26,201 bases of DNA, taken from IMG/VR virus record IMGVR_UViG_3300023180_000351, positions 1 through 26,201 of that record. One strand, written 5' to 3'. The number at the start of each line of letters is the position of its first letter. Within the stretch, counting starts at the first letter, position 1. Source of the DNA: a virus. The notes under the pieces are model-generated. The model was not told the DNA's origin, made no database searches, and was given only the letters and a program-made list of their open reading frames with translations. Below are positions 2-6,276 of the stretch, piece after piece. The translations under genes and the position numbers were made by a program.

Positions 2-76
2 GCAACAAAATCAAACGACGAATCGGAAACACCTACCAAATATAATTGGAATGGCACAGCTTGGGTGTCCGAATAG
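2..76 (+). CDS. C-terminal end of an upstream tail protein (partial)
   Basis: This frame is open from the left edge and ends at a TAG at 74-76. The last residues read KYNWNGTAWVSE, a short aromatic/Asn/Gly ending typical of phage tail fibre or tail-associated proteins. Only 24 residues are visible, so the function is inferred from this ending and from the fibre gene that starts 9 bases downstream. The stop codon adjoins the GGAG ribosome site of the next gene, so the two are probably in one transcript. Confidence 0.5.
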   Translation, partial: ATKSNDESETPTKYNWNGTAWVSE

Positions 77-85
77 GAGACTCAC

Positions 86-1855
86 ATGGCCAGATCAAAT
101 GGCGGAATAATCGGTAAAACAAATAAAGCTTCTTTCGGGAAGTGTGTTCAAACAGTAATCACTAGTGATGGATGTCACACAACACAACCAGGAACTAGAG
201 TTGTTAAAACTCTTTTAGTTGGTGGTGGTGGCGGTGGTGGAAATAATCAAGGTGGTGGTGGAGGTGCAGGTGGTGCTGAAGTATTTAATTGTGTTTCTGT
301 TACTGGAAATACAGCTTATCCAATAGATATAGGTGCAGGTGGAGCTAATAATACAGACGGTAATGATACAACTGCTTTTGGTAAAACAGGTGGTGGAGGT
401 GCATCTGGTGGAACTTCTCCCGTAGATAATGGTAGCACCGCGCCTTTGGGTTCAGGTGGAGGTGGATCAAACTGTGGAGCTTTAGGTGGTGGAGGAGGGC
501 CTCAAGGTAATCCTGGTGGGCCTACTGCTGGATCTCCAGGAGGTATGTCAGGTGGTGGCGGTGGAGTTGGTGGAGTTGGAGAACCTGGAGGAACAGGCGC
601 TGCTTGTCAACAAGATGGTGGTCCAGGAACAGATTTTAGTCCACAGTTTACAGGTATACCTAACTCTGGTGTATATGGAGGAGGTGGTGGTGGAGCTTCA
701 AGAAATTGTCAACCTCAAAGAGGTCTTGGTGGACCTGGTGGAGGTGGTAATGGAGAATTAGGAGCTGCTCAAACACCTGGATCAAATGCAACTGCTAACA
801 CAGGTGGTGGTGGAGGTGGAGGTGGTGGACCTATAGGCTCTAGTAGAAGTGGATTTAATGGCGGATCAGGAATCGTAGTCGTAAAAGAATTAAACAAAGC
901 AAGTGGTGTGTGGTCAATGCAAAGTCAAATGGCAGCCAAGCAACAAGGAACATGGCCTGATGGAACAGTAAACTTAGGACAAGTTTTTGATTATCTAGTA
1001 GTTGCTGGAGGAGGTGGTGGAGCTTCTGGCACATACGCTGGAGGTGGTGGTGGAGCTGGAGGTCATAGATCTTCTTTTCCTGGTGGAACAAAATTAAATT
1101 TAGACTCAGGAGTATATACTGTAACTGTAGGAGGTGGTGGTGCCACAGGTACTAAAGGAGACGATTCAGTATTCGGAGTAGGTGGTGTTGAAAATACTTC
1201 AATGATTACATCAACTGGTGGTGGTCAAGCAAATTCAGGTTCTGGTGGATCTGGAGGAGGAGCAAATTCTATTGGTGCAACTGGAGTTGCAAACCCTGGT
1301 GGAGCAGGAAATACTCCGCCTACAAGTCCATCACAAGGTAATCCTGGTGGAGATAATGCTAAACCTGGTCCAAATACTGGTGGTTTTGGTGGATCAGGTG
1401 GTGGTGGTGCTGGGGGATCTGGTGGTGCTGCACCTAATGCACCAGGTTCTGGACCAGGACCAGGAGGTTCTGGAGGTAGTGGAACAGCTAACTCTATTAC
1501 TGGTAGCTCAGTTACAAGAGCTGGTGGTGGTGGCGGCGGTGGATGGTGTGCAGGATCACCTACACCTAATAACGGAGGAGCAGCAGGACCTGGTGGTGGA
1601 GGTGCTGGAGGAGCTTCAGGTTCAGGAAAACCAGTGTCAACAGCTGGAACAGTTAACACTGGAGGTGGTGGAGGTGGACCTGGTAAATGTAATCCTTCTG
1701 CCGATGGAAAAGCAGGTGGTTCAGGAATAGTTGTTGTAAGAGCACCAAGTGCTAGAACTTTTGTAGTAACACCTTGTACAAACACAACATCAAGTACGCC
1801 AGGTGGATGTAAAGTTGCAACGTTTACAGTTTCTGGAACATTGACAGTTTCATAA
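86..1855 (+). CDS. Glycine-rich tail fibre / adhesin-like protein
   Basis: The 589-residue protein is dominated by runs of Gly broken by Ala, Ser, Pro and Asn. Two similar domains are visible. The first runs from VVKTLLVGGG (about residue 39) to IVVVKEL (263-269); the second runs from VFDYLVVAGG (about 300) to IVVVRA (about 548-553). A short non-Gly tail with two Cys ends in VSGTLTVS. Known Gly-rich phage adhesins, such as the tip protein of Salmonella phage S16, pack such runs as polyglycine II helices and bind the host surface, so receptor binding at the tail tip is the likely role. The start is set by GGAG at 76-79, six bases before the ATG. Dense GGT/GGA codons make it richer in G than its neighbours. 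It could instead be another virion surface protein; the Gly-rich architecture itself is certain. Confidence 0.75.
   Translation: MARSNGGIIGKTNKASFGKCVQTVITSDGCHTTQPGTRVVKTLLVGGGGGGGNNQGGGGGAGGAEVFNCVSVTGNTAYPIDIGAGGANNTDGNDTTAFGKTGGGGASGGTSPVDNGSTAPLGSGGGGSNCGALGGGGGPQGNPGGPTAGSPGGMSGGGGGVGGVGEPGGTGAACQQDGGPGTDFSPQFTGIPNSGVYGGGGGGASRNCQPQRGLGGPGGGGNGELGAAQTPGSNATANTGGGGGGGGGPIGSSRSGFNGGSGIVVVKELNKASGVWSMQSQMAAKQQGTWPDGTVNLGQVFDYLVVAGGGGGASGTYAGGGGGAGGHRSSFPGGTKLNLDSGVYTVTVGGGGATGTKGDDSVFGVGGVENTSMITSTGGGQANSGSGGSGGGANSIGATGVANPGGAGNTPPTSPSQGNPGGDNAKPGPNTGGFGGSGGGGAGGSGGAAPNAPGSGPGPGGSGGSGTANSITGSSVTRAGGGGGGGWCAGSPTPNNGGAAGPGGGGAGGASGSGKPVSTAGTVNTGGGGGGPGKCNPSADGKAGGSGIVVVRAPSARTFVVTPCTNTTSSTPGGCKVATFTVSGTLTVS
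200..1741 (+). repeat. Two tandem copies of a poly-glycine domain
   Basis: Copy A is 200-892 and copy B is 983-1741. Both start with a short hydrophobic strand leading into Gly (KTLLVGGG and DYLVVAGG). Both have a second strand-like element before another Gly block (AYPIDIGAGG and VYTVTVGGGG), and both end in GGSGIVVV. The copies have diverged in sequence, so this is an old domain duplication rather than a recent DNA repeat. They are joined by a non-repetitive linker of about 30 residues. Confidence 0.6.
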
Positions 1856-1868
1856 TAAATGTTATATT
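1841..1868 (+). promoter_or_regulatory. Candidate sigma70-type promoter before the oxygenase genes
   Basis: TTGACA at 1841-1846 and TATATT at 1863-1868 are separated by 16 bases. The -35 box matches consensus exactly and the -10 box matches five of six bases. Predicted transcription would begin around 1875, about ten bases before the ATG at 1885, giving a very short leader. The -35 box lies inside the end of the fibre gene. In AT-rich DNA such matches also arise by chance. Confidence 0.35.
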
Positions 1869-1884
1869 AAGTTCATAAAGACAT

Positions 1885-2511
1885 ATGAACTTTACAAATT
1901 ATTATTGGTATTTTAAATCAGCAATCCCAGAACGTATCTGTGATGACATTGTAAAGTATGGTCATCAAATGCAAGATCAAATGGCAGTCACTGGTGGTTA
2001 TGGTGATAAAAAATTAAACGCAAAACAAGTTAAAGATTTAAAAAAGAAAAGAAACTCAGACATTGTTTGGATGAGTGATAGATGGATTTACAAAGAAATA
2101 CAACCTTATGTGCATCAAGCAAACGCTAATGCTGGTTGGAATTTTAATTGGGACTTTAGTGAGTCTTGTCAATTTACAAAATATAAAAAAGGCCAGTATT
2201 ATGATTGGCATTGTGATAGCTGGGATCAACCTTATCAACGACAACAAGGTGATCCATCACATGGTAAAATTAGAAAACTATCTGTAACCGTAACTTTATC
2301 AGATCCTAAAGATTATAAAGGTGGTGAGTTAGAATTTGATTTTAGAAATCTTGATCCAGATAAAAAAAGAAACGTTAGAAAATGTACAGAGATATTACCC
2401 AAAGGATCTTTAGTTGTATTTCCTTCATTTGTATGGCATAGAGTATGTCCAGTGAAAAGTGGTGAAAGAAATAGTTTAGTAATATGGAACTTAGGGTATC
2501 CATTTCAATAA
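1885..2511 (+). CDS. 2-oxoglutarate/Fe(II) oxygenase, prolyl-4-hydroxylase-like
   Basis: This 208-residue protein has the iron- and 2-oxoglutarate-binding pattern of the prolyl-4-hydroxylase/PKHD superfamily. It has the HxD pair H109-x-D111 (in YDWHCDSW), a distal His at H185 (in FVWHRV), and R195 ten residues later (in GERNSLVIW) to bind the co-substrate carboxylate. The strands KLSVTVTLSD and GGELEF match the double-stranded beta-helix core. Such enzymes hydroxylate a protein or small molecule using O2 and 2-oxoglutarate. It follows the glycine-rich fibre by 29 bases and precedes a second oxygenase by 9. The ribosome site before its ATG is weak. The substrate cannot be read from sequence; the adjacent Pro/Gly-rich fibre is a candidate. 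Confidence 0.85.
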   Translation: MNFTNYYWYFKSAIPERICDDIVKYGHQMQDQMAVTGGYGDKKLNAKQVKDLKKKRNSDIVWMSDRWIYKEIQPYVHQANANAGWNFNWDFSESCQFTKYKKGQYYDWHCDSWDQPYQRQQGDPSHGKIRKLSVTVTLSDPKDYKGGELEFDFRNLDPDKKRNVRKCTEILPKGSLVVFPSFVWHRVCPVKSGERNSLVIWNLGYPFQ

Positions 2512-2520
2512 AGGAGAAAT

Positions 2521-3243
2521 ATGAAAAAGAAAAAAGCTAAAGCTAGAAAACAAAAAACAAAAAAAGAAGTAGTTAGTTATCCAAAACAATTAAATTTAGA
2601 ACAATATTTTGCATCTCCTATATGGTTTGCAGATGCACCAGAGTTTGCAGATAGTTTAAATAAAGCGTCTGATAAATATATAGAAGCATCTAAGAAAAAT
2701 TTAAAACCAGCTATTGATAAACGTAATAAAAAGTTTGGGGACAAAGGAGACATGGGTCATGTATTCCATTCAACATCATTGATTGGAGATCCTGACTTTA
2801 AACAATTACAAGATTACATAGGTGCAACAGCACATAACTTATTAGGTGAAATGGGTTTTGATATGTCTGGTCATCAATTGTTTACTACAGAATTATGGGT
2901 GCAAGAGTTTGCTAAAAAAGGTGGTGGACATCATACTTTGCACACTCATTGGAATGGTCACATATCTGGTTTCTATTTTTTAAAAGCAGATGAATCTACT
3001 TCAATGCCTTTGTTCGAAGATCCAAGACCAGGTAATGTTATGAATCTATTACCAGAAAAAGATAAAACAAAAGTAACTTATGCTAGTTCTGCAATAAATT
3101 ATCAAGTAAAACCAGGTAGAATGATGTTCTTTCCATCATACTTACCTCATCAGTACATTGTAGATATGGGTTATAATCCATTTAGATTTATACATTGGAA
3201 TTGTCAGGCAATACCAAAAGGAGTGTTAAACCCTAATGTCTAA
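2521..3243 (+). CDS. Putative 2OG-Fe(II) oxygenase (marine phage type)
   Basis: The 240-residue product starts with a very Lys-rich tail (residues 1-16) and then a domain resembling the 2OG-Fe(II) oxygenase family common in cyanophages and pelagiphages. The key region is HHTLHTHWNGHISGFYFL (137-154), followed by FEDPRP with D167, LPH with H210, and FRFIHWN with R222 as the likely 2-oxoglutarate-binding residue. The exact iron ligands are uncertain because several His residues cluster at 137-143. AAGGAGAAAT just before the ATG is a good ribosome site. It belongs to a different subfamily from the oxygenases on either side, so the three are not simple tandem duplicates. The substrate is unknown. 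Confidence 0.75.
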   Translation: MKKKKAKARKQKTKKEVVSYPKQLNLEQYFASPIWFADAPEFADSLNKASDKYIEASKKNLKPAIDKRNKKFGDKGDMGHVFHSTSLIGDPDFKQLQDYIGATAHNLLGEMGFDMSGHQLFTTELWVQEFAKKGGGHHTLHTHWNGHISGFYFLKADESTSMPLFEDPRPGNVMNLLPEKDKTKVTYASSAINYQVKPGRMMFFPSYLPHQYIVDMGYNPFRFIHWNCQAIPKGVLNPNV

Positions 3244-3385
3244 TAAAAATTTTAAAAAATCTTTTATAAATACTATCTTAAATTCTGATACTAAAAATAA
3301 AGAGTCTGATGATTTTGTTAGAATGTTTTTAAAAGATATACAAAAGAAATTAAAAAGGATAAAAAATGTCATTCAAAAAAAATAA
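3236..3385 (+). CDS. Small basic ORF overlapping two oxygenase genes
   Basis: A 49-residue frame starts at ATG 3236, overlaps the previous gene by 8 bases and the next by 20, and ends in the A-run at 3375-3382 followed by TAA. The product (MSNKNFKKSFINTILNS...) is Lys-rich with a helical C-terminal half and resembles no family I know. It fills what would otherwise be a 122-base gap. GGAG at about 3220 is rather far from the ATG. It may be a genuine small gene, or an extension of the next protein reached by slippage on the A-run. Confidence 0.4.
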   Translation: MSNKNFKKSFINTILNSDTKNKESDDFVRMFLKDIQKKLKRIKNVIQKK

Positions 3386-4007
3386 ATACACAGTATTAAA
3401 AAAAGCTATCTCACCTGAGATTGCAGAGTTTGTTTATAAATATTTCTTAAACAAAAGAGAAGTTGCAAGATTTTTATTTGATCAAAAATATATTTCACCT
3501 TTTACAGAATATTATGGTGTATGGAATGATGAACAGGTACCAAATACTTATTCACATTACAGTGATATTGCAATGGAGACTTTATTAAAAGAAGTAAAAC
3601 CTGTAATGGAAAAACATACAAAATTAAAATTATCTGAGACTTATTCATATGCAAGAATATACAAAGAAGGTGATGTCCTAGCTCGTCACAAAGATAGATA
3701 CTCATGCGAGATATCTACTACATTAAATCTAGGTGGTGACCCATGGCCCATTTATTTAGATCCAACGGGTAAGACAGGTCAGGCTGGTATTAAAGTCGAC
3801 CTTGAACCAGGAGACATGTTAATCTATTCTGGTTGTGATTTAGAGCATTGGAGAGAAGAATTTAAAGGTAAGAACTGTGGACAAGTATTCTTACATTATA
3901 ATAAAGCTAGTTCTAAAACAGCTAAAGAAAACTACTTAGATAAAAGACCTTTACTAGGCACACCTGCCTGGTTTAAAGGTGTTAAGTTGACAAAAATTAA
4001 GAAATAG
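3366..4007 (+). CDS. 2OG-Fe(II) oxygenase family protein (third in the cluster)
   Basis: This 213-residue protein has H108-x-D110 in VLARHKDRYSCE, followed by a strand ISTTLNLGG, a LEPGD turn and a distal His H161 in DLEHWRE. These positions fit the iron site of the 2-oxoglutarate/Fe(II) oxygenase fold. The usual distal Arg/Lys is not obvious; GQVFLHYNK (172-180) lies where it would be expected. It shares little sequence with the two upstream oxygenases beyond these motifs. The ATG at 3366 is preceded by an A-rich stretch with AAGGAT. It is the last gene before a strong terminator and so closes the fibre/oxygenase transcription unit. The substrate is unknown. Confidence 0.75.
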   Translation: MSFKKNKYTVLKKAISPEIAEFVYKYFLNKREVARFLFDQKYISPFTEYYGVWNDEQVPNTYSHYSDIAMETLLKEVKPVMEKHTKLKLSETYSYARIYKEGDVLARHKDRYSCEISTTLNLGGDPWPIYLDPTGKTGQAGIKVDLEPGDMLIYSGCDLEHWREEFKGKNCGQVFLHYNKASSKTAKENYLDKRPLLGTPAWFKGVKLTKIKK

Positions 4008-4104: not shown

Positions 4105-6276
4105 ATGTTACAAAAGATAGGTTTTCAGCCAGGATTTAACAAACAAATCACAGAAACCACAGCCGAAGGACAATGGGTTGATGGGGATAATGTGCGTTTT
4201 AGATATGGTACACCTGAAAAAATAGGTGGTTGGGCACAGTTAGGTGAGTCAAAACTTACAGGAGCTGCAAGAGCCTTACATCATTTAGTCAATAAATCAG
4301 GCAACAAGTTTGCAATTATAGGTACAAACAGAATTTTATATGCTTACACAGGTGGTGTATTTTATGACATTCACCCTATTAAAACTACAACAACATTAAC
4401 CAATGCATTTAGTACAACGAATGGTTCACCAACGGTCACTTTAACATTCAGCACGGACCACGGAATACAAGAAAATGATATTATTCTTTTAGATAATTTT
4501 ACAGCTATTACAAACTCTGATTATACAGCTGCAGATTTTGATGATAAAAAATTTATGGTAACATCTGTGCCAACAGCAACCACTTTAACTATTACAATGC
4601 CATCTAATGAGACAGGCTCAGGTGCAACTTTATCTGGTGGCATTAGAGTTCAACATTATTATCCAGTAGGACCCGCAGAACAATTACCTGGCTTTGGTTG
4701 GGGACTAGCTTCTTGGGGTGGAACTGTAACAGGTGAAGCAACTACAACTTTAAATGGTGCTATCAATGATGTCACAACAACCATTATATTAACAGACGCA
4801 TCTTTGTTTCCAACTTCAGGTACAAACTTTGTGCAGATAGGTTCAGAAGAAATTTCATATACAGGTATATCAGGTAATACTTTAACAGGAGTTACAAGAG
4901 GTGTTAGAAACACAACAGCTGCAACACACTCAAATGGTGCAACGGTAACCAACAGTTCAGATTATATTGCTTGGGGTGAAGCAGCATCTGGTGACTTAGT
5001 TGTTGATCCTGGTTTATGGTCTATTGATAACTTTGGAGATAAAGTAATTGCACTAATTCATAATGCACAATGTTTTGAATGGGATTCAAATGCAACAAAC
5101 GCTGTAACCAATAGAGCAACTATTATTGCAGGTGCACCAACAGCGTCACGTGATATGTTAGTATCAACTCCTGATAGACACTTAGTATTTTTTGGAACAG
5201 AAACAACGATTGGAACACCATCTACACAAGATGAAATGTTTATAAGATTTTCGAATCAAGAAGATATTAATACTTATCAACCAACAGCGGTCAATACAGC
5301 AGGTACACAAAGACTTGCAGACGGATCTAAAATTGTAGGTGCGGTTAGAGGTAGAGATGCAATTTACGTTTGGACCGATACGTCTTTATTTACTATGAGA
5401 TTTATTGGTCAACCATTTACATTTGGTTTCCAACAAGTAGGGACGAACTGTGGATTGATTGGACAGAACGCTGCATTAGAAGTTGATGGTGCTGCATATT
5501 GGTTTTCAGAAAACGGTTTCTTTAAATACTCTGGTAACCTTGAGACTATGATTTGTTTAGTAGAAGACTTTGTTTTTGATGATTTAAATACAACAGCTAA
5601 TCAATTAATTAATGTTGGGTTAAATAATTTATTCGGTGAGATTACTTGGTTCTATTGTACAGAAAGTTCGACTGTTATTAATAGATGTGTAACTTATAAT
5701 TATCTTGACTCACGTCCTAATAGACCTGTTTGGACAACAGGAAGCTTGGCCCGTGGATCATGGCAAGACTCTTCTGTGTTTGGTCTACCTCATGCAACAT
5801 ATTTCAATGCGGAGGATGATGCATCATTTGATGTTGTTGGTAATACTGAAGGAAGCACAATATACTTTGAACATGAAAAAGGAACGGATGAAGCATTAGC
5901 AAGTGGGGTAAATACAATTACATCTAATATTGAATCAGGGGACTTTGATATTACACAAACAGGATCTGGACAAGGGCAAACAGGTGTTGCAACTTTTCAA
6001 GGAGATGGTGAATATATTATGAAGATCAGAAGATTTGTACCTGACTTTTTATCTCAAACAGGTGATACTCAAATAACATTACAACTTAGAAATTATCCTA
6101 ATAGCACTCAAGCAAGCTCACCACTTGGACCCTTTACAATTACCTCATCTACTGATAAGGTAGACACTCGTGCAAGAGCACGAGCTATATCTTTAAAAGT
6201 AGCTAATACAGCAGCTAATCAAAGCTGGAAGCTAGGTACTTTTAGATTAGATACACAACCAGATGGAAGACGATAA
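4105..6276 (+). CDS. P22 gp10-like tail accessory / packaged-DNA stabilisation protein
   Basis: The 723-residue protein opens with KIGFQPGFNKQITETTAEG, then WVDGDNVRFRYGTPEKIGGW. This N-terminus is characteristic, in my recollection, of the packaged-DNA stabilisation (gp10-like) family of marine short-tailed phages. Two Thr-rich beta segments appear inserted after the start of the core: about 92-180 and about 210-285. The second includes IGSEEISYTGISG and GVTRGVRNTTAATH, a small beta domain found in many phage structural proteins. The remainder is beta-rich and propeller-like. In P22, gp10 closes the portal after DNA packaging and anchors the tail. AAGGA precedes the ATG by 7 bases. It shares one base with the next gene (TAATG), so the two are translationally coupled. 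Confidence 0.65.
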   Translation: MLQKIGFQPGFNKQITETTAEGQWVDGDNVRFRYGTPEKIGGWAQLGESKLTGAARALHHLVNKSGNKFAIIGTNRILYAYTGGVFYDIHPIKTTTTLTNAFSTTNGSPTVTLTFSTDHGIQENDIILLDNFTAITNSDYTAADFDDKKFMVTSVPTATTLTITMPSNETGSGATLSGGIRVQHYYPVGPAEQLPGFGWGLASWGGTVTGEATTTLNGAINDVTTTIILTDASLFPTSGTNFVQIGSEEISYTGISGNTLTGVTRGVRNTTAATHSNGATVTNSSDYIAWGEAASGDLVVDPGLWSIDNFGDKVIALIHNAQCFEWDSNATNAVTNRATIIAGAPTASRDMLVSTPDRHLVFFGTETTIGTPSTQDEMFIRFSNQEDINTYQPTAVNTAGTQRLADGSKIVGAVRGRDAIYVWTDTSLFTMRFIGQPFTFGFQQVGTNCGLIGQNAALEVDGAAYWFSENGFFKYSGNLETMICLVEDFVFDDLNTTANQLINVGLNNLFGEITWFYCTESSTVINRCVTYNYLDSRPNRPVWTTGSLARGSWQDSSVFGLPHATYFNAEDDASFDVVGNTEGSTIYFEHEKGTDEALASGVNTITSNIESGDFDITQTGSGQGQTGVATFQGDGEYIMKIRRFVPDFLSQTGDTQITLQLRNYPNSTQASSPLGPFTITSSTDKVDTRARARAISLKVANTAANQSWKLGTFRLDTQPDGRR

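Follow-up and report, generated by a model that had tools for sequence, protein, structure and literature searches.

In the phage contig analysed here, a glycine-rich fibre gene (FIB) is followed, in a run of genes on the same strand, by three genes of the 2-oxoglutarate (2OG)/Fe(II) oxygenase type (OG1, OG2, and OG3); OG1 and OG3 have the predicted fold and the catalytic residues of prolyl hydroxylases, and the linkage of such genes to fibres recurs across phage types and oxygenase subfamilies. With modest confidence, we suggest that OG1–OG3 probably hydroxylate proteins of the Gly-rich fibre module, either FIB or its partner MAH, during virion assembly. According to this proposal, the three post-fibre genes would give rise to 2-oxoglutarate/Fe(II) oxygenases while virions are being produced, these would consume host 2-oxoglutarate, O2, and Fe(II) to leave hydroxyl groups on residues in exposed loops of the adhesin, and the hydroxylated adhesin carried by the virion may then differ in its stability, folding, or receptor contact, presumably to the benefit of the phage. 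Proline would be one candidate target residue among others, and a doubtful one.

The window is the whole stretch of 26,201 nucleotides, i.e., an IMG/VR virus record consisting of a 26.2 kb contig of a marine phage. Its nearest named relative, as judged by OG1 (82.8% amino-acid identity), is the Pelagibacter podovirus HTVC033P. The features of the cassette are collected in Table 1.

Table 1. Position of the fibre and oxygenase genes, and of their neighbours, in the window.
Feature	Position	Strand	Basis or remark
MAH, fibre-partner gene, last 24 residues	2..76	+	cut by window start; relative of HTVC033P gp63, phrog_7759
FIB, Gly-rich fibre, candidate substrate	86..1855	+	PF21722 E 9e-20, two Gly_rich_2 stretches; composition
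OG1, predicted prolyl-hydroxylase-fold 2OG-Fe(II) oxygenase	1885..2511	+	PF13640, phrog_61; invariant residues; model and structure matches
OG2, TIGR02466/PF13759-type putative 2OG-Fe(II) oxygenase	2521..3243	+	PF13759 E 2e-14; HxH...H motif
49-aa ORF	3236..3385	+	several relatives have a 51-52 aa ORF in the equivalent place
OG3, phrog_2954 "ferrochelatase", predicted prolyl-hydroxylase fold	3366..4007	+	invariant residues; model and structure matches
Downstream virion structural gene	4105..6276	+	phrog_3287 virion structural protein E 2e-109

The initial annotation had pointed to a fibre gene paired with a prolyl-hydroxylase-like gene, and this pair does exist as open reading frames of 589 and 208 aa with 29 nt between them; the two further oxygenase-type genes and the C-terminus of the fibre partner had been overlooked. 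The intergenic gaps of the cassette are short or overlapping, and the virion structural gene downstream places it in a structural-region context. It is gene order and spacing alone that suggest an operon or a shared late transcript, because the patterns of promoters (27 found vs. 28.7 expected) and of terminators (4 found vs. 4.1 expected) were at chance level in our scans.

The FIB protein contains 33.6% Gly and 6.5% Pro and belongs to the Gly_rich_2 family (PF21722), with 72.1 bits in two stretches vs. a curated cut-off of 24.3; a PDB sequence search with FIB gave no match at E 0.01. MAH, a short protein sitting beside Gly-rich fibres, is a candidate fibre chaperone. The fragment in the window ends in YNWNGTAWVSE before the stop, and HTVC033P gp63 ends in YNWNGSAWVSE; PDB sequence searches with MAH and with OG3 yielded no usable match. 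In the way they are assembled, FIB and MAH may resemble gp24 of the myocyanophage Pam3, with its Gly-rich host-recognising fibre domain, and the small dedicated chaperone gp25 required for its assembly (PMC9608196); the accessible text of that source describes no oxygenase. No oxygenase fused to a Gly-rich fibre was found in the loci examined.

OG1 matches the Pfam family 2OG-FeII_Oxy_3 (PF13640; E 4e-17, 63 bits vs. a cut-off of 27), and its residues H109, D111, H185, and R195, previously described as intact, are invariant across 42 diverse homologs. It carries the HxD...H iron ligands and the downstream Arg/Lys for 2-oxoglutarate by which the 2OG-Fe(II) superfamily is recognised. The predicted model (pLDDT 92.7) is a double-stranded β-helix with the prolyl-hydroxylase fold, the top Foldseek match of which is the collagen prolyl hydroxylase of the chlorovirus PBCV-1 (vCPH, 5c5t; E 6.5e-12), with the P. 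putida P4H bound to EF-Tu, PiuC, and an algal P4H with a (Ser-Pro)5 peptide as further leading matches. In VIA-align, the P. putida prolyl-4-hydroxylase comes first (Z 18.8, rmsd 3.0, 175 residues), and both PHD2 and vCPH (Z 18.2, rmsd 3.1, 168 residues, 25% identity) are within 1 Z of it. By its predicted fold and catalytic residues, OG1 would be a prolyl-hydroxylase-like enzyme, and presumably an active one. The best PDB sequence matches of OG1 are YbiX/PiuC proteins (3dkq, 9ghl; E 4e-7), with which it has the core motif in common, but its assignment as a PKHD-type YbiX/PiuC equivalog (NF003972-5) was rejected, with 60, 42, 35, and 32 bits vs. cut-offs of 143, 180, 399, and 336, i.e., far under every one of them even at best.

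Similarly to OG1, vCPH is a small, virus-encoded 2OG oxygenase with the P4H fold, and hydroxyproline has been reported in PBCV-1 viral proteins, according to a title cited in PMC9301287; the chlorovirus, however, infects an alga, whereas OG1 belongs to a tandem set of three oxygenases next to the gene of a tail fibre. The P. putida P4H (4iw3, 4j25), which acts with EF-Tu, shares the fold of both OG1 and OG3, but it is a cellular enzyme with a host-protein target, whereas relatives of OG1 are hardly found in cellular genomes: when the genomes of 84,980 species were scanned with the single OG1 protein, only 6 loci were found to encode a relative, and therefore no common cellular OG1 homolog turned up. 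That a host protein such as EF-Tu, or a host surface component, is what becomes hydroxylated, with the position of the genes merely reflecting expression timing, is a reading which draws on the presence of the bacterial P4H with EF-Tu and of PHD2 among the closest structures, and a common fold does not identify the substrate. We consider it decidedly unlikely, and under it one would not expect the tight gene-order linkage to MAH and a Gly-rich fibre that is described below for phages of different types.

OG2 scores above the curated cut-offs of both TIGR02466 (70.9 vs. 62.5 bits) and PF13759 (54.5 vs. 27 bits), with 3bvc as its PDB match. OG3 matches phrog_2954, labelled ferrochelatase, and gave no match of any kind in Pfam. 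Since its profile comparison with OG1 was uninformative (probability of 3%), structure was used instead: the predicted model (pLDDT 93.8) is a double-stranded β-helix with the HxD...H motif by which the 2OG-Fe(II) oxygenase superfamily is defined, and H108, D110, H161, and R163 are invariant in 44 sequences. The best Foldseek match is again the P. putida P4H (E 8e-9; Z 15-16 in VIA), PHD2 and other 2OG oxygenases are also found, and there is no ferrochelatase among the matches listed. On the predicted structure, we read OG3 as a putative oxygenase despite its label. Given that phrog_3531 aligns to OG3 on its N-terminal side and to OG1 on its C-terminal side, and that in S-SCSM1 the OG3-type and OG1-type matches both fall in a reported 455-aa open frame, it is suggested that OG1 and OG3 work together.

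The superfamily also includes epimerases, with SnoN among the structure matches of OG3, and some relatives of these genes bear DNA-related labels, as in the case of phrog_274 ("DNA endonuclease V"); furthermore, the cyanophage members have been proposed, in PMC3037559, to act in DNA repair. On these grounds the cassette might serve nucleotide, DNA, or small-molecule chemistry, such as DNA-base modification or metabolite synthesis. This we regard as very improbable, given that the top matches of OG1 are protein prolyl hydroxylases, that the genes lie in the structural region and not among replication genes, and that the phrog_274 members found here are themselves oxygenase-like by profile comparison (87-96% probability).

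The association of OG1 with fibres is not peculiar to this contig. OG1 is preceded by a Gly-rich or MAH gene in 76 of the 80 most similar loci (directly in 67), and each of the other four is on a contig without any fibre gene upstream. Counting one vote per 70%-identity cluster of OG1-anchored loci, linkage to a Gly-rich fibre or MAH within 6 kb was found in 24 of 27 informative clusters (HTVC033P, HTVC023P, HTVC008M, S-SM1, S-RSM4, and Mosig among them), and it spans podoviruses and T4-like myoviruses. In more distant relatives, which extend to HTVC008M-type myoviruses and cyanomyoviruses, the fibre association is kept in other gene orders and involves from 2 to about 12 oxygenase-like genes. 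The three unlinked clusters are L146/L147, S-SCSM1, where OG3 is more than 30 kb away from the Gly_rich_2 match, and Melnitz-2, which has Gly_rich_2 proteins without an OG3 match and only distant oxygenases. When the position of OG3 relative to Gly_rich_2 was put to a whole-genome rotation test in seven isolates, the combined p was 0.003, from single-genome values of 0.02 to 0.55, several of them weak and from genomes that are not fully independent. The initial annotation had taken a lack of linkage across related phages as the outcome that would speak against it, and this outcome did not occur: most OG1 clusters are linked, and three different genome layouts show the association. This statement is limited to the OG1 subfamily, because the scans were started with fibre-linked OG1 proteins, and being neighbours does not make an enzyme active; a distant branch of the PHROG of OG1 adjoins uvsW, and some related oxygenase copies lie beside replication genes.

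The reverse sampling was anchored on MAH, so that fibres were drawn without selecting for oxygenases. Oxygenases were found at 4 kb or less from MAH in 55 of 64 HTVC033P-like loci, in 35 of 70 Bellamy-like loci, and in only 2 of 75 Roseobacter-phage-like loci; the cassette is therefore common in certain lineages and missing from others, and the fibre can do without it. In the Bellamy-like sample a second layout appeared, in which a Gly-rich fibre gene is followed by a gene of 82-87 aa, one PF13759 oxygenase, and then MAH. It is seen in freshwater phages and is present in about 20 other loci, with the lake phage DSL-LC04 as a named example, and, with its different oxygenase subfamily and position, it is the best evidence for an association beyond shared ancestry.

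The published reading of such genes is a different one, namely that they are auxiliary metabolic genes tuning host 2-oxoglutarate, nitrogen status, or iron/haem, for which the fibre side would be a convenient cargo hotspot of the late region. In the accessible text of the sources, modulation of 2OG/NtcA besides DNA repair was proposed for the cyanophage oxygenases (PMC3037559), 24 oxygenase copies in one phage were related to host reprogramming, with functions not specifically investigated (PMC9602691), and oxygenase and ferrochelatase were proposed as partner genes (PMC9599517). The cyanophage oxygenases T4-GC 240/412/611 and the "ferrochelatase" GC 615 were likewise published as auxiliary metabolic genes, in texts whose accessible parts do not point out the linkage to Gly-rich fibres; they are homologous to the genes described here and adjoin tail-fibre genes in S-SM1, S-RSM4, and S-MbCM6. 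The location of some family members outside fibre regions also fits a metabolic role. A general cargo hotspot would, however, be expected to hold mixed genes, and the genes inserted in the cassette are almost uniform in their chemistry: the 80 close loci contain 20 extra genes with a length of 100 aa or above, of which 19 resemble 2OG/JmjC oxygenases, Trp halogenases (PF04820, E 3e-101, at two loci, L041 and L068), or a sulfotransferase (phrog_3347, at L067), the smaller oxygenases having been labelled by means of HMMs built in this analysis and profile comparison; the 51-52 aa ORFs are among the other inserts. In addition, the "ferrochelatase" OG3 is predicted to be an oxygenase of prolyl-hydroxylase fold, and the second arrangement ties yet another oxygenase subfamily to the fibre. 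We therefore find the metabolic reading rather unlikely. A tentative idea, more doubtful than not, is that the fibre-side region works as an island of chemical decoration, where oxygenase subfamilies, Trp halogenases, and a sulfotransferase would be swapped in to alter the adhesin post-translationally; HTVC008M also bears a halogenase, and a Trp halogenase has elsewhere been guessed to confer antibiotic protection (PMC2984593).

If OG1–OG3 do hydroxylate the fibre module, the question arises of which residues would be modified, and here the initial interpretation stands only in part, i.e., in the prolyl-hydroxylase fold and the linkage, and not in the collagen-like Pro-Gly pairs as the substrate. 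Pro beside Gly was held to be special in FIB, but its composition predicts 12.8 pairs each of PG and GP, and the numbers observed are 17 (p about 0.10) and 10, respectively. The motifs quoted in its support are poorly conserved (Pro at 143 and 146 in 30 and 9% of homologs, and at 450, 453, 457, and 459 in 35, 7, 24, and 11%), and the mean identity at Pro positions of FIB (36%) is comparable with that of Ser (36%), Thr (41%), and Ala (33%). Without correction, Pro content is higher in oxygenase-linked than in unlinked fibres (5.9 vs. 3.5%, p 1.5e-19), but it is no different within one mixed sample (4.8 vs. 4.6%), and phylogenetic regression of Pro content on the oxygenase over the MAH tree gave +0.45 points (p 0.19), which lends no indirect support to a prolyl 4-hydroxylase activity of OG1. 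Proline as a substrate signature was thus rejected as evidence by pair counts, conservation, and phylogenetic regression, and so was FIB as a collagen-like protein, with no Pro-Gly enrichment and no collagen Pfam match. A few specific prolines may nevertheless be targets, e.g., 411, 412, and 415, or 554, 563, and 572, all conserved in 74-91% of FIB homologs; Pro291 also belongs to the conserved prolines of FIB.

With respect to precedents, a prolyl 4-hydroxylase is mentioned in one article alongside viral collagen of tail fibres, its use being described there as cryptic (PMC9301287), and another notes that phage 2OG oxygenases, including phrog_61, are structurally like human EGLN3 (PMC12774648). 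In the open-licence literature, we found no report of oxygenase linkage to Gly-rich fibres or of the modification of phage fibres by such enzymes. Virus-encoded protein hydroxylases are known in chloroviruses, and a tail-fibre-linked set of them in bacteriophages would be a new form of these. If a large subset of these oxygenases modifies the phage's own fibres, genes that have been read as metabolic reprogramming would become virion-maturation genes, "ferrochelatase" claims for phage genomes would need revising, and predicting the host range solely from the fibre sequence would be incomplete. If the decoration island also proves true, the receptor-contact surface of these phages would owe its diversity to enzymes in addition to sequence.

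The proteins of the MAH family, relatives of HTVC033P gp63, are about 115–200 aa long, and start in most cases with MAHFA. In many phages, both marine and freshwater ones, they adjoin Gly-rich fibres, whether the oxygenases are present or absent, and we regard this family as a candidate fibre chaperone. The window fibre itself (86–1855) contains 10 Cys (residues 20, 30, 69, 130, 174, 208, 488, 535, 564, and 575), most of them not conserved among homologs.

Further enzyme-type genes were found at the fibre-oxygenase cassette. Trp halogenase genes lie within or close to it in several loci, and short proteins of phrog_274, annotated as “DNA endonuclease V”, resemble 2OG oxygenases (probability 87–96%). 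The JmjC/cupin-type protein of one locus is possibly a further kind of protein hydroxylase.

Features at the cassette in the window and in loci of related phages (L-numbers)
Feature	Position	Remarks
MAH family member	window 2–76; L002:5691–6179 and relatives	
Basic ORF, 49–52 aa	window 3236–3385; L038, L051, L055, L071, L080, L084	OG2–OG3 interval
phrog_274 short protein, 2OG-oxygenase-like	L040:764–1294; also L042, L046, L079	profile comparison
Trp halogenase gene	L041:2290–3783; L068:2282–3793; L186; L364/L365; HTVC008M gp079	
Sulfotransferase-like gene	L067:1747–2325	phrog_3347; flanked by Gly-rich fibre and OG1
JmjC/cupin-type protein	L027:3876–4331	PF08007 E 8e-6; flanked by Gly-rich fibre and OG1

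In the second oxygenase, OG2 (2521–3243), and its PF13759 relatives, HxH...H is conserved instead of HxD...H, which suggests, from these residues, either that three histidines bind the iron or that a carboxylate is supplied from elsewhere. The small basic ORF that separates OG2 from OG3 in the window has counterparts at this place in several relatives.

The phage “ferrochelatase” OG3 (3366–4007; phrog_2954, phrog_3531) has a predicted prolyl-hydroxylase fold, and its HxD...H is invariant. Published claims on phage ferrochelatases paired with oxygenases may need revision.
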